DNA from: Falsiroseomonas oleicola
GTDB lineage: Bacteria; Pseudomonadota; Alphaproteobacteria; Acetobacterales; Acetobacteraceae
Direction: 5' to 3'
DNA length: 64,000 bases
Assembly: GCF_019029495.1 (NCBI RefSeq)
Contig: NZ_JAERQM010000001.1
Coordinates: forward strand, 558,001-622,000
The stretch's first letter is position 1; each line of letters starts with the position of its first letter. Shown here piece by piece: positions 49,192-55,144 of this stretch. The notes beneath the pieces are model-generated. The model saw only the letters and a list, made by a program, of their open reading frames with translations. It did no database searches and was not told the origin of the DNA. The position numbers and the translations under genes are program-made.

Positions 49192-49851
49192 CTACGCCGC
49201 CGAGGCGCGTTCCGAAAGGATGGTATCCGCCTGCCGGAAGGCATCGGCCATGCGCTCGGCCGGCATGGCGCCGCTGAACAGCAGATGGCGGTCCATCAGG
49301 AAGGAGGGCACGCCGGAAATGCCGCCGCGCCGCGCCGCCATATCCTCCGCCAGCACCTCCGCCCGATGCGCCTCGCCGGCCAGCATCCCGGCCACCGCCG
49401 CGGCGTCCATCCCCGCGCCGCCGGCGAGTTTGGCCAGCGTCGCGGCATCGCCGACATCGCGGCCTTCCTGGAAATAACCGCGGAACAGCGCCTCCACCAC
49501 GGCGTGCTGCAGGCCGCTCGCCTCCGCCATGCGGATCACCCGATGGGCGGCGACGGTATTGGGGGTGCGCAGCATCAGCTCGTGCCGAAAATCCAGCCCG
49601 ACGGCGCGGCCGGCCTGCGCCACATTGCCGTCCAGCTCCCGCCCCCGGCTTTCCGAGCCGAACTTTTGGGCGCGGTATTCGGCCCGGGCCACGCCCTCCG
49701 CCGGCATTTCGGGGTTGAGCTGGAAGGGCCGCCAGCGGATCTCGAAGCGCAGCCCGTCTGCCGCCAGCAGTTCCAGCGCCGCATCCAGGTTGCGCTTGCC
49801 GATCCAGCACCAGGGGCAGATGGCGTCGGAAATGATGTCGAGCTTGCGCAT
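49192..49851 (-). CDS. FrnE-type DsbA-family oxidoreductase
   Basis: 219-residue cytoplasmic thioredoxin-fold protein with the redox motif C-P-W-C in ISDAICPWCWIGKRNLD. The cis-proline region is GISGVPSFLMDRHLLFSGA, and an alpha-helical insertion lies between them. It belongs to the FrnE/2-hydroxychromene-2-carboxylate isomerase-like group implicated in oxidative-stress and disulfide chemistry. ATG 49851 has GGGAGG close upstream; earlier in-frame starts would remove the upstream region of the divergent repeat-protein gene. Confidence 0.87.
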   Translation of the reverse strand: MRKLDIISDAICPWCWIGKRNLDAALELLAADGLRFEIRWRPFQLNPEMPAEGVARAEYRAQKFGSESRGRELDGNVAQAGRAVGLDFRHELMLRTPNTVAAHRVIRMAEASGLQHAVVEALFRGYFQEGRDVGDAATLAKLAGGAGMDAAAVAGMLAGEAHRAEVLAEDMAARRGGISGVPSFLMDRHLLFSGAMPAERMADAFRQADTILSERASAA

Positions 49852-49976
49852 GCCGGCCTCCCTGGTTGCGGGCTGACCTCGCACCATGCCCGCCCCATGG
49901 TCAAGGCCGCCGGGCTTCACAGGCCGTTAGCCAATGCCCCCGCAAGATAGGCTGGGACAAAAGGCCGAGACTTCCT

Positions 49977-52900
49977 TTGCAGATCACCGCCACGACCAGC
50001 GCGGCCAATGCCCGTCACCTGGCCGGCGTGCTGGCCAACCTGTCCACGACCCAGATCGGGATGCTGGAGCCGGAGGTGATCGGCCGGCTGCCCGGGCTCG
50101 CCTTGGCCGGGCTGGCCAGCACCCAGCTGGCAGCCCTGGCGACCACCCAGCTCGCGGCGCTGAAATCGACGCAGGTCGCGGCGCTCGCCACCACCCAGAT
50201 CGCCGCCCTGGCCAGCACCCAGCTTGGCGCGCTGGGCACTTCGGCTGCCAGCGGAATGGGCGCCACGCAGGTGGCGGCGCTCGGCACAGCGGGGCTGGCG
50301 GCGCTCGCCTCCACGCAACTGGCCGCGCTGAAGCCGGCGGCGCTGACCGCCTTGCCCACGGACACCCTGGCGGCACTGGGCACCACGCAGACCTCGGCGC
50401 TGACGCGCGGCCAGATGGCGGCGCTGCGGCCGACCCAGATGGCGGCCCTGGCCACGGAGACCATCGCGGCGCTGACCACGACGCAGCTCGCCGGCGTCAG
50501 CAATGCCGGCATCGCCGCCCTCGGCACGGCGCAGCTCGCCGCCCTGGCGAGCACGCAGATCGGCGCGCTGAGCCGCAGCCAGGCCACCGCCCTGACCGCC
50601 AGCCAGATCACCGCCCTGGCCCCCAGCCAGCTCGTCGCGCTGGATGCCAAGCAGCTCGCCACCTTCTCCGGCGCCGAGGTCGCCGGCCTGTCCAGCACGG
50701 CGCTGAGTGCCCTGTCCGGCACCCAGATCGCCGGCTTCACCGCGCGCCAGGTGGCGGCGATGCAGCCGGAGGGGCTGGCGGCGCTGGACCAGTCCCAGCT
50801 CGCCGCCATCTCCGCCTCCGCCATGGCGATGCTGAGCCTGGGCCAGGTGCAGGCGCTGGGCACCACCCAGGCGGCGGCGCTGACCACGGCGCAGATGCGC
50901 GCGCTCGGCGCCGTGCAGGCGAAGGCCATGACGGCGGAGCAGATGGCCGCGCTGTCCACCACCCAGATCGCCGCGCTGACGCCGCTGGCGCTCGCGGCGG
51001 TGGATGGGTCGGATTTCGACGCGCTCTCCACCGCGCAATGGGCTGCCTTCAGCACTGCGCAACTGGCCGCGCTGAAGCCGGCGCAGATCGCCGGCATGGG
51101 CACGGCGACGCTGACCGGGCTGGCGCCGGACCGCATGGCCGGCCTGTCCCGCGCCGCCATTGGCGGGCTGACCACCACCCAGCTTGGCGCGCTCGGCAGC
51201 AGCCGGATCGCGGCACTGACGACGACGCAGATGGGCGGGCTGACCTCCGCGCAACTGGCCGGGCTCGGCACGGCGGATGTCGCGGCGCTGGGCACCACCC
51301 AGATCGCGGCGCTGGCGCGCGGCGCCCTGCCAGGGCTTGGCACCGCCGGGCTGCTGGCGCTGGGCGATACCGGGTTGGCGGCGCTGACCACGGGCCAGGT
51401 CAGCGCCCTGACCGCGACGCAGATCGGCGCCCTGCCGACCGCCAGCCTGGCGGCGCTGGGCACGCGCCAGGTCGCGGCGCTCAGCAGCGCGGCGCTGGCC
51501 GGGTTGGGTAGCGGCCAGTTGGCGGCGCTCGGAACCAGCCAGATGGCGGCGCTGGGCACGGCGCAGCTCGGCGCGCTGGGCAGCACGCAGCTTGCCGCGC
51601 TCGCCGCGACGCAGATCGCCGCCCTGTCGACCACCCAGGTCGCGGGCCTCGCCGGCGCGGCGCTGGGCGGCCTGCAGGGGGAGGCGATGCAGGCCCTCGC
51701 GGTGCAGGGTCTGGGCAAGCTGCAATTGATGGGCCTCGGCAGCGCCCAGCTCAGCGCCTTCGCCACCAGCCAGGTGGCGGCGCTGACCAGCACCCAGGTC
51801 GCGGCGCTGGACCGCTACCAGGTGCAGGCGCTGCCGGATGGCGCGCCGGCGCTCTGGGGCACGGCGCAGATCGGCGCGCTGACGGCGGCCGGCATCATGG
51901 GGCTGGAGGCGGCGGACCTCGCCGTGCTCTCCACCGACCAGGCGGCGGTGCTGAAGCGCGCGCAATTGGCGGCGCTGAGCAGCAGCCAGATCGGCCAACT
52001 CGGCGCGACACAGATCGCCGCCCTGGCCACCAGCGCGCTGCAGGGGCTGGTCTCCACCCAGGTGGCGGCGCTGACCAGCACCGCTTTGGCCGGGCTGGCC
52101 AGCGGGCAATGGGCGGCGCTGTCGCCCGCCGCGCTGCCGGGGCTGGAGAGCGCGGCGCTGTCCGGTATCGGCAGTGCGAACCTCGCCGCGCTGACCGGGG
52201 CGCAGGTGGCGGCCCTCGGCACGGCGCAACTGCTGGCCGCGGCCTCGGACCAGCTCACCAGCCTCGGCACCACCCAGCTCGCCGCCCTGACCGCGACGCA
52301 GCTGGGCGCGTTGGACGGCGCGCGCGTCGCGGCGCTGGGGACGGAGGCGCTGGCCGCGCTGTCCACCGCCGGCATCGCCGCGCTCGGCACCGCGACGGCC
52401 GGCGCCTGGGGCACGACGCAGGTCGCGGCGCTGGGCACGGCACAGGTGGCGGCCCTGTCCGGCACCGCGCTGGCCGGGCTGTCCAGCACCGCCTTCGACG
52501 CGCTCGGCAGCACGCAACTCGTGGCGCTGGGCTCGGCGCAGCTTGGCGCGCTGTCCAGCAGCAGCGTGGCCGCGCTGGCCACCACGCAGCTCGCGGCGCT
52601 GAGCGCCTCGGGCCTCGCCGGGCTCGGCGTGGCGGCGCTGGACTCGGCGCAATTCGCGGCGCTGGCGACCAGCCAGGTGGCCGGGCTGGGCTCCGCCCAG
52701 ATCGCCAGCCTTTCCGCCACCCAGATCGGCTTCCTGGCGACCACGCAACTCGCCGCGCTGACCCCTGCCGCCACCGCCGGGCTGGCCCTGCCGGGGCTGG
52801 GCACCACGGGGCTGGCGGTTCTCGGCACGGCACAGATGGCGGCGCTGGGCTCGGCGCAGGTGGCTTCGCTGGATTCCACGCAGCTCGCGGCGCTGGCCAG

Positions 52901-53705
52901 CACACAGCTCGCCGCGCTTTCCGCCACCGGCATCGCCGGGCTGGATATGGGCCTGGCGGCGGGACGGCTGGGGGAGCTGTCCTCCCGCCAGATCGGCGGG
53001 CTGGTCTCCAGCCAGATCGCGGCCCTGGCCGCCACCGACCTCGCGGCGCTGACCAGCACGCAGATCGGCGGCTTGGCGGCGCCCGCCTTGGCCGGGCTGA
53101 CCACGGTGCAGATCGACCTGCTCGGCACCCGCATGCAGGGGCTGAGCGTGACGCAGATCGGCGGGCTGGGCGCGTCACAGGTCGCCGCTTTGTCCACCAC
53201 CGTGCTGGCCGGGATGGGCACGGGCCAGGTGGCGGGGCTGTCCTATTCCGGCACATCGGGCCTCGGCACGGCGCAGGTGGCGGCGCTCGGCGCGACGCAG
53301 ATCGCGGCGCTGCGGCCGCAGCAGTTCCTGGCCCTCGGCACCAGCCAGATCGCCGCCCTGGCGACGACGCAGGTGGCGGCGCTGACCGCGACGCAGCTCG
53401 GCGGCATGGGGCCGGCGCAGGTCGGCGCGCTGGACACGGCGCAGATGGCGGCGCTGACCGGGGCCGCGCTGGCGGCGATGGATGCGACTCAGGTCGCCGC
53501 GCTATCCACCGCCGATGTCGCGGCGATCGCGCCCGACTCCTTCCTCGGCCTGACCACCACGGCGGTGCAGGCGCTGTCCACAGCCCAGGTGGCGGCGGTG
53601 ACCACGGCGCAGCTTTCGGCGCTGCGCGCGCGGCAGGAAACCCCCTTCAGCCGCGACCAGCTTTTCAGCATGACGCCGGAGCAGCTTTCCGCGCTGTATG
53701 GCTGA
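49977..53705 (+). CDS. Giant octapeptide-repeat protein, function unknown
   Basis: About 1242 residues. After a short unique head (QITATTSAANARHLAGVLAN) almost the whole protein is an eight-residue repeat, consensus L-x-[ST]-[TAS]-Q-[ILVM]-[AG]-A, roughly 150 copies. Examples are LASTQLAA, LATTQIAA and LGTAQVAA. The register slips a few times by a five-residue unit. The repeats contain no cysteine and very few charged or aromatic residues. The end, PFSRDQLFSMTPEQLSALYG, keeps the pattern. There is no signal peptide, membrane helix or known domain. S/T-x-x-Q is a helix N-cap box, so each unit could be one short helical turn of a solenoid. TTG 49977 is favoured over ATG 49866, which lies 14 bp from the divergent frnE-like start; no start has a strong ribosome-binding site. 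It is bounded by a hairpin downstream. Confidence 0.75.
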   Translation: MQITATTSAANARHLAGVLANLSTTQIGMLEPEVIGRLPGLALAGLASTQLAALATTQLAALKSTQVAALATTQIAALASTQLGALGTSAASGMGATQVAALGTAGLAALASTQLAALKPAALTALPTDTLAALGTTQTSALTRGQMAALRPTQMAALATETIAALTTTQLAGVSNAGIAALGTAQLAALASTQIGALSRSQATALTASQITALAPSQLVALDAKQLATFSGAEVAGLSSTALSALSGTQIAGFTARQVAAMQPEGLAALDQSQLAAISASAMAMLSLGQVQALGTTQAAALTTAQMRALGAVQAKAMTAEQMAALSTTQIAALTPLALAAVDGSDFDALSTAQWAAFSTAQLAALKPAQIAGMGTATLTGLAPDRMAGLSRAAIGGLTTTQLGALGSSRIAALTTTQMGGLTSAQLAGLGTADVAALGTTQIAALARGALPGLGTAGLLALGDTGLAALTTGQVSALTATQIGALPTASLAALGTRQVAALSSAALAGLGSGQLAALGTSQMAALGTAQLGALGSTQLAALAATQIAALSTTQVAGLAGAALGGLQGEAMQALAVQGLGKLQLMGLGSAQLSAFATSQVAALTSTQVAALDRYQVQALPDGAPALWGTAQIGALTAAGIMGLEAADLAVLSTDQAAVLKRAQLAALSSSQIGQLGATQIAALATSALQGLVSTQVAALTSTALAGLASGQWAALSPAALPGLESAALSGIGSANLAALTGAQVAALGTAQLLAAASDQLTSLGTTQLAALTATQLGALDGARVAALGTEALAALSTAGIAALGTATAGAWGTTQVAALGTAQVAALSGTALAGLSSTAFDALGSTQLVALGSAQLGALSSSSVAALATTQLAALSASGLAGLGVAALDSAQFAALATSQVAGLGSAQIASLSATQIGFLATTQLAALTPAATAGLALPGLGTTGLAVLGTAQMAALGSAQVASLDSTQLAALASTQLAALSATGIAGLDMGLAAGRLGELSSRQIGGLVSSQIAALAATDLAALTSTQIGGLAAPALAGLTTVQIDLLGTRMQGLSVTQIGGLGASQVAALSTTVLAGMGTGQVAGLSYSGTSGLGTAQVAALGATQIAALRPQQFLALGTSQIAALATTQVAALTATQLGGMGPAQVGALDTAQMAALTGAALAAMDATQVAALSTADVAAIAPDSFLGLTTTAVQALSTAQVAAVTTAQLSALRARQETPFSRDQLFSMTPEQLSALYG
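50040..53640 (+). repeat. 24-bp coding tandem repeat array
   Basis: The octapeptides are encoded by degenerate 24-bp units dominated by words such as GCGGCGCTG and ACCACCCAG. Because of the period all six frames stay largely open. Units differ at third positions and in the variable residues, so this is an old, diversified array rather than a recent expansion. Confidence 0.85.
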
Positions 53706-53707
53706 TC

Positions 53708-53740
53708 GGCCCCGGGTTGCGCCGCAGGCGCGGCCCGGCC
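53708..53740 (+). terminator. Hairpin after the repeat-protein gene
   Basis: GGCC, CGGG and GCGCC pair in turn with GGCGC, CCCG and GGCC around the GCA loop, giving an imperfect 13-bp stem 2 bp after the stop. No T-run follows. Confidence 0.5.
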
Positions 53741-53839
53741 AAGCTGCCACGAAGCGCCAGAACAATCCGACGGCAAACCCCCCGCAGCTCGTGGAGGTTG
53801 CATGCTTCGTGACGTCGCCTTTTCGGGCGCCTCCGCACC

Positions 53840-55144
53840 ATGACAGGGCGGCGGATGCACCTGGTCGCCTATCTGAAGACCGGGCCGACCGCGAACCATC
53901 CGGGCGCGTGGCGACACCCCGAATCAGACCTGCACGACATCCTCGCGCCCGAACGCTACGAGCATATCGCGCGCGTGCTGGAAGCCGCCTGCTTCGATGC
54001 CTGCTTCTTCGCCGACACCTTCGGCCTGCCCGACATCCATGGCGGCAATTTCGACGCCTATCTGCGCAAGGGCGGGCAGATCAGCTACCTCGACCCGATG
54101 ACGGTCCTGCCGGTGATGGGCCGGGTCACGCGGCATCTCGGCCTCGGTGCCACGCTGTCCACCACCTTCCAGCACCCCTACCACCTGGCCCGCAGCCTGG
54201 CCTCGCTCGACATCCTGACCGGCGGGCGCGCGGCCTGGAATGTCGTGACCTCCGCCACCGACCTGGAGGCGCGCAACTTCGGCATGGAGAGCATCCCGCC
54301 GAAGGAGCAGCGCTACGACCGCGCGGATGAGGTGCTGGAAGCCTGCGACGCGCTTTGGAACTGCTGGGACCCGGACCCTTTCGTCATGGACCGGGAGAAG
54401 GGCGTCTTCATCGACCCCGCCAAGGTGCGCTACGCCGATTTCAAGGGCCGCTGGGTCAGCACCCGTGGCCCGCTGAGCCTGCCGCGCATGCCGCAGGGCC
54501 GGCCGGTGCTGCTCCAGGCCGGGGCCTCCGATCGCGGTCGGGATTTCGCCGCGCGCTGGGCGGAGGCGGTGTTCTGCACGCCGCACAGCCAGGCCGATGC
54601 GCTGGCCTTCCGCGACGACATCCGGGCGCGGATGGCGAACCACGACCGCGCGCCGGACGGCTGCAAGGTGCTGCCCGGCTGCGCCATGGTGCTGGGCGAG
54701 ACGATGGCGATCGCGTGGGAGAAGGCCGCCTACCTGCAATCGCTGATCGAGCCGGAGGCGCAGACCATGCTGCATTCCGCGCTGCTCGGCGCCGACCTGT
54801 CGCAACACCGGACGGCGGAGGCGGTGGCGGCGGCGCAGGGCCACCAGGGCATCACCGGATCGCAGGACCGCGTGCTGCAACTGATGCAGAAGGAAAAGAT
54901 CAGCTTCGCCGAGGCCGCCGCGCGACCGCGCAACCTGCTGGTCGGCACCGCGCAGAGCATCGCCGATGAGATGGAGGCCTGGTTCACCGCCGGCGCCTGC
55001 GACGGCTTCGTCATCTTCCCCACGGTCTTCCCGCGCATGTTCGAGGATGTCTGCCGCCTGGTGGTGCCCGAACTGCAACGCCGGGGCCTGTTCCGCGGCG
55101 CCTATGCCGGGCGCACCCTGCGCGAGAACCTGGCCGCGGCCTGA
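53840..55144 (+). CDS. FMN-dependent monooxygenase, NtaA/SnaA/DszA type (first copy)
   Basis: 434-residue luciferase-like flavin monooxygenase. It opens MHLVAYLKTGPTANHPGAWR and shows the family segments FFADTFGLPDIHGG, LGLGATLSTTFQHPYHLARS and DILTGGRAAWNVVTS. The late RPVLLQAGASDRGRDFAARW lines the flavin site. Such enzymes use FMNH2 from a separate reductase to oxidise chelators, sulfur heterocycles or related compounds. No reductase gene is adjacent. ATG 53840 is used; ATG 53855 is possible. A paralogue follows 31 bp later. Confidence 0.87.
   Translation: MTGRRMHLVAYLKTGPTANHPGAWRHPESDLHDILAPERYEHIARVLEAACFDACFFADTFGLPDIHGGNFDAYLRKGGQISYLDPMTVLPVMGRVTRHLGLGATLSTTFQHPYHLARSLASLDILTGGRAAWNVVTSATDLEARNFGMESIPPKEQRYDRADEVLEACDALWNCWDPDPFVMDREKGVFIDPAKVRYADFKGRWVSTRGPLSLPRMPQGRPVLLQAGASDRGRDFAARWAEAVFCTPHSQADALAFRDDIRARMANHDRAPDGCKVLPGCAMVLGETMAIAWEKAAYLQSLIEPEAQTMLHSALLGADLSQHRTAEAVAAAQGHQGITGSQDRVLQLMQKEKISFAEAAARPRNLLVGTAQSIADEMEAWFTAGACDGFVIFPTVFPRMFEDVCRLVVPELQRRGLFRGAYAGRTLRENLAAA

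Follow-up and report, generated by a model that had tools for sequence, protein, structure and literature searches.

Among described alpha solenoids, mesothelin forms a right-handed solenoid whose 24 short helices are stacked in nine layers, according to a passage of the PubMed Central (PMC) paper PMC10035497. Among type I secreted repeat proteins, the repeats-in-toxin (RTX) proteins carry a C-terminal signal that is not cleaved, as stated in an excerpt of PMC6891781, and the known substrates of the glycosyltransferase FlmG are flagellins, according to part of PMC7591256. We analyzed a 64,000-nucleotide stretch of the Falsiroseomonas oleicola genome (positions 558,001 to 622,000 of contig NZ_JAERQM010000001.1; hereafter the window), in which the gene P0001 encodes a large protein made almost entirely of eight-residue repeats (octads). 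We regard it as nearly certain that the P0001 frame is translated into an octad protein of the Pfam family PF20080 with a helical-solenoid prediction. The explanation that we favour for it, a possibly glycosylated surface fibre exported by a type I secretion system (T1SS) that serves it in trans, stands an even chance of being right.

The octad array and its predicted fold

The P0001 frame is open on the + strand through 1242 codons plus the stop, giving a product of 1242 amino acids. The codon-position GC of this frame, counted from 49866, is 0.72/0.61/0.93, which resembles that of the neighbouring genes and is coding-like. A preliminary description of this DNA had reported the coordinates, the frame and an eight-residue period, all of which were borne out; residue identity at lag 8 was 0.357, compared with 0.139 expected from composition, and it was 0.352, 0.343, 0.336 and 0.315 at lags of 16, 24, 32 and 40. 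Its estimate of about 150 octads also stood, while its motif L-x-[ST]-x-Q-[ILVM]-A-A proved to be only a loose consensus. This strict motif has 27 exact occurrences in P0001 (mean in shuffles, 0.065). Therefore, we rejected it as a description of the array and scored the array with a circular profile trained on the P0001 sequence. The profile found 151 full octads in register with five in-frame phase slips, 147 of the 151 scoring above 0, and a consensus of roughly L-[GSAT]-[TS]-[TA]-Q-[LIV]-A-[AG], in which position 5 is Q in 95 octads and position 3 is S or T in 87. The array is more diverged than the giant array L009 of the same genome, with 145 of 151 octads distinct compared with 153 of 327. 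The lack of Cys and the low charge were as first described: P0001 has zero Cys and 5.5% charged residues. Its isoelectric point is 4.73, and no 19-residue window in it reaches a mean hydropathy of 1.6 or more.

P0001 matched PF20080 ('ALTTAQ repeat') in 44 stretches, with an E-value of 4.3e-155 and 503.6 bits against a curated cut-off of 26.4, and its tandem octads run along the length of the protein, as in the family. Therefore, the earlier claim that no known domain is present falls, and, because PF20080 is already named, P0001 adds a member to a known repeat family. No other family, and hence no DUF1217, was found for P0001 in the Pfam scan at E-values up to 1, and NCBIfam gave zero matches. 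A match to a named family of known function had been offered as the result that would speak against the preliminary description; PF20080 is named, and no description of its function was found among open-licence PMC papers. The same papers yielded no mention of PF20080 or ALTTAQ, of HeliScrew or of six octad strings. A phmmer search matched residues 115-222 to Protein Data Bank (PDB) entry 9zem (HeliScrew4; E = 6.3e-13). We also considered leucine-rich repeats, whose chains reached 5.4e-08 at best in phmmer, and set them aside as compositional by judgement; LRR_EndoS passes its cut-off on L009 (85.2 bits) and is not listed for P0001.

The AlphaFold2 models of residues 1-600 and 943-1242 show mostly a single helix of 4-6 residues per octad, in agreement with the solenoid of one-turn helices proposed before. 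The first 10 and last 40 residues of the former model are weaker, with a predicted local distance difference test (pLDDT) score of 58-70 per ten-residue block, as are the first 70 residues of the latter (61-79). The latter model also has longer helices near the C-terminus, at model residues 268-276 and 292-299. In octad 22-29 the modelled helix covers positions 3-7, and on our reading position 2 would be the N-cap and Q5 the N3 residue, which would fit a capping box.

A hidden period across the arrays

Next, we searched the arrays for a longer period, taking one octad as one step and comparing the content of the octads with that obtained after shuffling their order. The best period of P0001 was 3.448 octads (z = 6.1; 95% of the null maxima lay below 3.7). 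In a first set, 12 of 14 arrays peaked at 3.39-3.45 octads, four of the 12 being P0001 and its class A homologues, which are described below. In the remaining two, L068 peaked at 2.445 octads with 3.390 a close second (z = 29.2), and L071, with 58 octads, showed no overall significant period. In a second set of 18 open reading frames (ORFs), seven peaked at 3.39-3.48, seven at 2.0 and one at 4.0, L100 gave no peak, and peaks at 2.42 and 8.475 fit, as we read them, aliased harmonics of 3.4. A period near 3.4 octads was thus the strongest in 19 of 32 arrays, namely P0001 and 18 of the 31 others. At least two array types exist, and P0001 belongs to the 3.4 type. The arrays with a period of 2.0 (16 residues) are L094, L095, L101, L104, L107, L108 and one ORF of L105; neither family 41 glycosyltransferase (GT41) nor T1SS genes were found near them in the fetched stretches, some of which stop before the array is complete.

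We infer that the 3.4-octad period is one turn of a screw. Higher-order repeats of 48 octads occur in L009, L047, L050 and L052 and of 24 octads in L057, L059 and L065, with further peaks at 31 (L056), 34 (L067) and 27 octads (L068). Given that 24 or 48 octads correspond to 7 or 14 turns at 3.43 octads per turn, the duplication length of the giant arrays seems to be set by whole screw turns. The variation of helix length in the AlphaFold2 models does not, as we read it, follow the 3.4 period.

Nine features of P0001 were tested against the period, with p-values uncorrected for multiple tests. Net charge (p = 0.002), basic residues (0.004), Thr at position 3 (0.004) and Ala or Gly at position 8 (0.006) followed it; acidic residues (0.15), Q at position 5 (0.40), total Ser and Thr (S/T; 0.13), Pro at position 3 (0.97) and bulky residues at position 1 (0.11) did not. 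The class A profile showed the period in acidic residues, net charge and Thr at position 3 (p = 0.001 each). The two faces of the screw thus seem to differ. A general antiphase of acidic and basic residues was considered and rejected. The two roughly oppose each other, and both signals are strong, in five of nine arrays (L009, L057, L067, L068 and L077) and in L097, and opposite in L061 and L053, yet with one signal weak; they are not opposite in L055, L096, L102 and L103. In P0001, the basic signal is present and the acidic one absent.

Relatives, gene neighbourhoods and the C-terminal end

Class A consists of the P0001 locus and L046, L053 and L054 from three other genomes of the genus, the latter three having 1136-1137 codons. 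These three are mutually syntenic, align without internal gaps over that length and show pairwise ratios of nonsynonymous to synonymous substitution rates (dN/dS) of 0.27, 0.32 and 0.27. P0001 aligns with them from end to end at 42-43% identity, and its TTG start falls on the ATG of L053 and L054 (both MQVTS..), so that the beginning MQ[IV]T is shared. We also compared N-terminal, middle and 250-residue C-terminal blocks with L053 or L054 at all octad offsets. In-register identity was higher than at every other offset in five of five blocks, although the margin in the middle block was tiny (0.422 compared with 0.419). Therefore, the likeness reflects homology within class A and not mere periodicity. 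P0001 has five phase slips compared with two in the homologues, and its dN/dS against them is 0.77-0.85, a value that is unreliable because of the distance and the repeat alignment.

The source genome has three PF20080 loci: P0001, the giant L009 on contig C12 (2671 residues counted from the first ATG, which is probably an overestimate), and, on contig C28, a DUF1217 protein that contains an octad insert. Counting the source genome, PF20080 occurs in 14 of 39 relatives (among the matches listed), 6 of 385 genomes of the class and 28 of 398 genomes of the phylum. GT41 was found in five of the six PF20080-bearing class genomes, compared with 147 of 385 overall, and within 10 kb of an array in four. 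With two GT41 genes in 5.5 Mb, the chance that one lies within 10 kb is about 0.7%. The GT41 matches in the source genome fall in four stretches, which belong to just two genes; both of these adjoin the giant array. The GT41 enzymes encoded beside arrays carry tetratricopeptide repeats (TPRs).

We then tallied the neighbours of the arrays by hand. Outside class A (the window, L046, L053, L054) and the DUF1217 class (L010, L051, L073, L074, L075), and leaving aside L060, L072 and the contig fragments L048, L063 and L064, there are 39 array loci, and at 23 of them the stretch that was fetched contains GT41 or T1SS genes. Of the 23, 20 are linked to GT41, and 13 of the 20 also have T1SS genes. 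The 39 include nine loci from the phylum scan with neither gene (L094, L095, L100, L101, L104-L108), ATP-binding cassette (ABC) transporter matches of 28-36% identity were not counted as T1SS, and neighbours may be unseen where fetched stretches stop in or near the array, as several do. The loci are not independent, because eight of the 39 come from the genus. The material covers 5 of 55 matching plasmid records and, besides the source genome, 13 of 28 matching phylum genomes with 18 loci; a pattern scan of genome contigs gave 117 matching stretches, among them two array loci, L077 and L078.

Within the genus (15 genomes), an orthologue of the T1SS protein HlyD (55-59% identity, E up to 1e-40) was present in 8 of 8 genomes with a long array of the T1SS/GT41 type and in 0 of 7 without (p = 1.6e-4), the arrays of G003, G007, G010 and G012 running off contig ends. 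Strong GT41 matches (E of 1e-29 or less) occur in the same eight genomes. In G002, genes for a UDP-xylose-synthase-like (UXS-like) enzyme, ABC, HlyD, a methyltransferase, GT41b, GT41a and the array follow one another within about 20 kb. The source genome splits such a module: contig C1 carries the genes for the UXS-like enzyme, ABC, HlyD and the methyltransferase in a span of about 9 kb, whereas the GT41 genes are on C12. Its ABC and HlyD proteins are orthologous to those encoded beside an array on a Pseudoroseomonas plasmid (74% and 56% identical). Thus, the earlier remark that no export system is obvious holds for the neighbourhood of P0001 and fails for the genome. The methyltransferase is of one family in the source genome, G002 and three plasmids (about 53-77% identity). 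Both T1SS and GT41 occur at three of five plasmid loci, GT41 without T1SS at a fourth, and neither at the fifth, which is unannotated. Plasmid pRSKD131B of Cereibacter sphaeroides KD131, for instance, encodes an array together with ABC, HlyD, GT41 and a methyltransferase. The gene at L065:852-1826 is annotated as UDP-glucuronic acid decarboxylase, for which Pfam gives an Epimerase-type match only; this gene, or one 72-77% identical, stands beside GT41, T1SS or array genes at L065, L087:7456-8427, L081:3658-4623, L056 and L071. Such a UXS-like neighbour hints at UDP-xylose as the sugar donor.

The plasmid arrays at L065:6053-11176 and L066:10186-17630 are split over several ORFs in different frames and therefore look frameshift-interrupted. 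Plasmid arrays are labelled 'heme utilization protein', 'ICE nucleation protein' or 'large exoprotein', which look like automatic mislabels. A bacterial cadherin-like protein with a short octad array (L060:6559-9990) has a surface-type context. In the DUF1217 protein of the source genome (L010:4376-5737), encoded after flagellin and FlbT, the octad array lies between DUF1217-matching parts; L051, L073, L074 and L075 likewise have an array inside a DUF1217 protein in a flagellin/FlbT/FlgL cluster. Divergent GT41 matches (E about 1e-22 to 1e-15; frames of more than 900 residues) stand beside a DUF1217-octad gene in the flagellar cluster. In a Burkholderiaceae metagenome-assembled genome (L078:5188-15377), FliP, FliM and FliL are the neighbours of a 1225-residue array and a GT41 gene.

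P0001 ends in the signature [AGSPT]F[TSN]xxQxxxMxxx[QH], which begins exactly 20 residues before the C-terminus in P0001 and 11 other loci, including arrays beside T1SS and GT41 genes, and 21-23 residues before it in four more. The three class A homologues have F in place of M. A relaxed pattern is terminal in 18 of 26 arrays (19 with L048), compared with 17 inner matches in about 5621 octads. Class A itself occurs in at least four of the eight module-positive genomes of the genus and in none of the seven module-negative ones (among the matches listed; p = 0.05).

By Pfam, the neighbours of P0001 are DSBA, LemA and M48 on one side and two luciferase-like monooxygenases on the other, which agrees with the earlier statement that the gene stands between unrelated genes. 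DSBA, LemA and M48 are kept together in 9 of 10 relatives, and a monooxygenase adjoins them in none of the nine relatives whose contig reaches that side; P0001 thus lies, as judged from gene order, at a synteny break, and at a different site from its three homologues. The preliminary description also had the gene bounded by hairpins. A hairpin-bounded transcription unit is unsupported, since no terminator-like site was found within 49600-54000 and neither flank of P0001 is better folded than shuffled sequence (z = -0.59 and +0.85). A GC-rich hairpin of 12 pairs, without a T run, lies directly 3' of the stop (window 53712-53738). A phage origin was rejected, as tblastn against 50,697 phage records gave zero matches.

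Table 1. Coordinates of P0001, its parts and related genes (window positions unless a contig is named; pTM, predicted template modelling score)
Feature	Position	Strand	Details
P0001 coding sequence, octad-repeat protein	49977..53705	+	TTG start; stop 53703-53705
Octad array, residue 22 to C-terminus, with almost all 151 full octads	50040..53702	+	Circular profile, lag-8 autocorrelation, AlphaFold2 helices
Phase slip 1, residue 576, 5-residue unit	51702	+	Circular profile
Phase slip 2, residue 885, 5-residue unit	52629	+	Circular profile
Phase slip 3, residue 938, 5-residue unit	52788	+	Circular profile
Phase slip 4, residue 991	52947	+	252 residues before end; similar slip in L053 at 248
Phase slip 5, residue about 1053	53133	+	191 residues before end, same in L053
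C-terminal signature, last 20 residues	53643..53702	+	PFSRDQLFSMTPEQLSALYG
AlphaFold2 model, residues 1-600	49977..51776	+	Mean pLDDT 90.2, pTM 0.69
AlphaFold2 model, residues 943-1242	52803..53702	+	Mean pLDDT 88.4, pTM 0.78
T1SS ABC gene of the source genome	C1:765525-767657		
Divergent flagellar-cluster GT41 matches	G009:C36:154053-155078; G014:C185:1479-2498		

Possible roles and comparison with known systems

We propose that P0001 would fold as one long screw, in which each octad is a one-turn helix, with about 3.4 octads per turn and roughly 44 turns. Needing no signal peptide, it would be exported through the T1SS encoded elsewhere in the genome, its conserved C-terminal end being the secretion signal; its Thr/Ser-rich octads may receive sugars in the cytoplasm from the two GT41 enzymes encoded beside the giant paralogue; and it would work as a surface or extracellular fibre. 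The gene neighbourhoods of the relatives favour a surface filament; the signal role of the C-terminus and the fibre function are putative. Export by the array-linked T1SS, which rests on genome context and the shared end, may equally well hold or fail. Glycosylation is the weakest step, since the GT41 genes are unlinked to P0001, which also contains less Thr than most GT41-linked giants.

Several results weigh against this proposal. Neither GT41 nor T1SS genes were seen at 16 of the 39 array loci, and the terminal signature is absent from 7 of the 26 arrays (L056, L068, L069, L070, L076, L077 and L078). No module gene adjoins P0001 or its three homologues (0 of 4 loci), and the T1SS genes lie about 154 kb from P0001, on the same contig. 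Compared in register, the C-termini of P0001 and L009 are no more alike than at other offsets (0.288 over 250 residues, 0.325 over 40). S or T occupies octad position 3 at a frequency of 0.58 in P0001 compared with 0.92-0.98 in four GT41-linked arrays, other GT41-linked arrays having 0.80 (L068), 0.37 (L078) and 0.29 (L071). In addition, the DUF1217 class places octad arrays in proteins of flagellar clusters as well.

The main rival, which we consider unlikely, is that P0001 is a rigid scaffold or spacer in the cytoplasm, its end motif capping the screw at the C-terminus rather than directing secretion. The longer AlphaFold2 helices near the C-terminus might be those of a cap, the isolation of the four class A genes from export and glycosylation genes is in line with it, and the total S/T content of P0001, 0.20, is lower than the 0.32-0.35 of the giants L009, L050 and L057. 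However, the same end motif is found in arrays encoded beside T1SS genes, P0001 is Cys-free and acidic, and class A was seen in at least four of the module-positive genomes of the genus and, among the matches listed, in none of the module-negative ones. We also considered the possibility, which seems rather improbable, that P0001 is a relocated orphan copy losing its function. The synteny break, the low identity to the homologues with five slips compared with two, and the raised dN/dS would all accord with this. Against it stand the entire open frame with its coding-like codon-position GC, the retained start and end signature and the confident helical prediction for octads in most modelled parts, and the dN/dS value itself is unreliable, as noted above.

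It is still less probable that the octad screws serve the flagellum, with P0001 a flagellum-associated component and the neighbouring GT41 enzymes glycosyltransferases of the flagellin type. The smallest paralogue in the source genome is the DUF1217 protein with the octad insert, encoded after flagellin and FlbT, and a DUF1217 protein is listed in a Brucella flagellar locus in part of PMC7410920; the L078 array and its GT41 gene adjoin FliP, FliM and FliL, and Caulobacter FlmG, which combines TPRs with a glycosyltransferase, modifies flagellins according to an excerpt of PMC7591256. However, the five scanned neighbours of P0001 are non-flagellar, P0001 has no DUF1217 match, and 13 of the 20 GT41-linked array loci also have T1SS genes. 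Finally, long overlapping ORFs, such as one of 943 amino acids on the minus strand (49917-52748), might suggest that the octads are a compositional artefact of a high-GC repeat, with the coding frame elsewhere or on the other strand. This is extremely improbable given the strength of the Pfam match, although this frame only was scanned, and given that the homologues conserve the P0001 frame with dN/dS of 0.27-0.32.

Tentatively, the surface-fibre proposal for P0001 can be extended to a joint reading, in which arrays of the 3.4 period form a general bacterial class of surface fibres with a fixed screw symmetry of close to 24 octads in 7 turns. These would undergo cytoplasmic O-glycosylation by dedicated GT41 enzymes, perhaps with xylose, and methylation, and would be exported by a dedicated T1SS through a shared C-terminal signal; P0001 would be a stand-alone client whose charge-banded faces allow side-by-side packing. 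The named PF20080 repeat family, so far unexplained, thereby gains a testable role. If this reading is true, then the range of secreted fibres gains an all-helical glycosylated screw whose geometry the sequence alone reveals; the gene module of array, GT41, methyltransferase, UXS-like enzyme and T1SS can be removed piecewise; and the plasmid arrays annotated as 'heme utilization' or 'ICE nucleation' are accounted for.

Among the known systems, mesothelin and the ARM- and HEAT-type alpha solenoids were considered for the fold, and the best PDB matches of the model in Foldseek were mesothelin chains (E = 1.8e-4). HeliScrew4, a solved structure and, as its name suggests, a designed protein, is likewise a chain of octads; it is short, with 120 residues, unlike P0001, and is not among the 50 Foldseek matches listed for the model. 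The likeness to FlmG and other GT41 O-glycosylation systems lies in the TPR-bearing GT41 genes beside octad arrays. However, FlmG systems modify flagellins, whereas glycosylation of the octad arrays is putative, and no report of a pairing of T1SS with GT41 was found among the open-licence PMC papers. P0001 differs from RTX proteins, which have GGxGxDxxx nonapeptides, in having 0 matches to GG.G.D, a predicted all-alpha fold and an unlinked T1SS. Nevertheless, it shares with RTX and other adhesins among the type I secreted repeat proteins a large, Cys-free and acidic chain without a hydrophobic N-terminal segment, and it has a conserved C-terminal end and relatives that are encoded beside HlyD and ABC genes.

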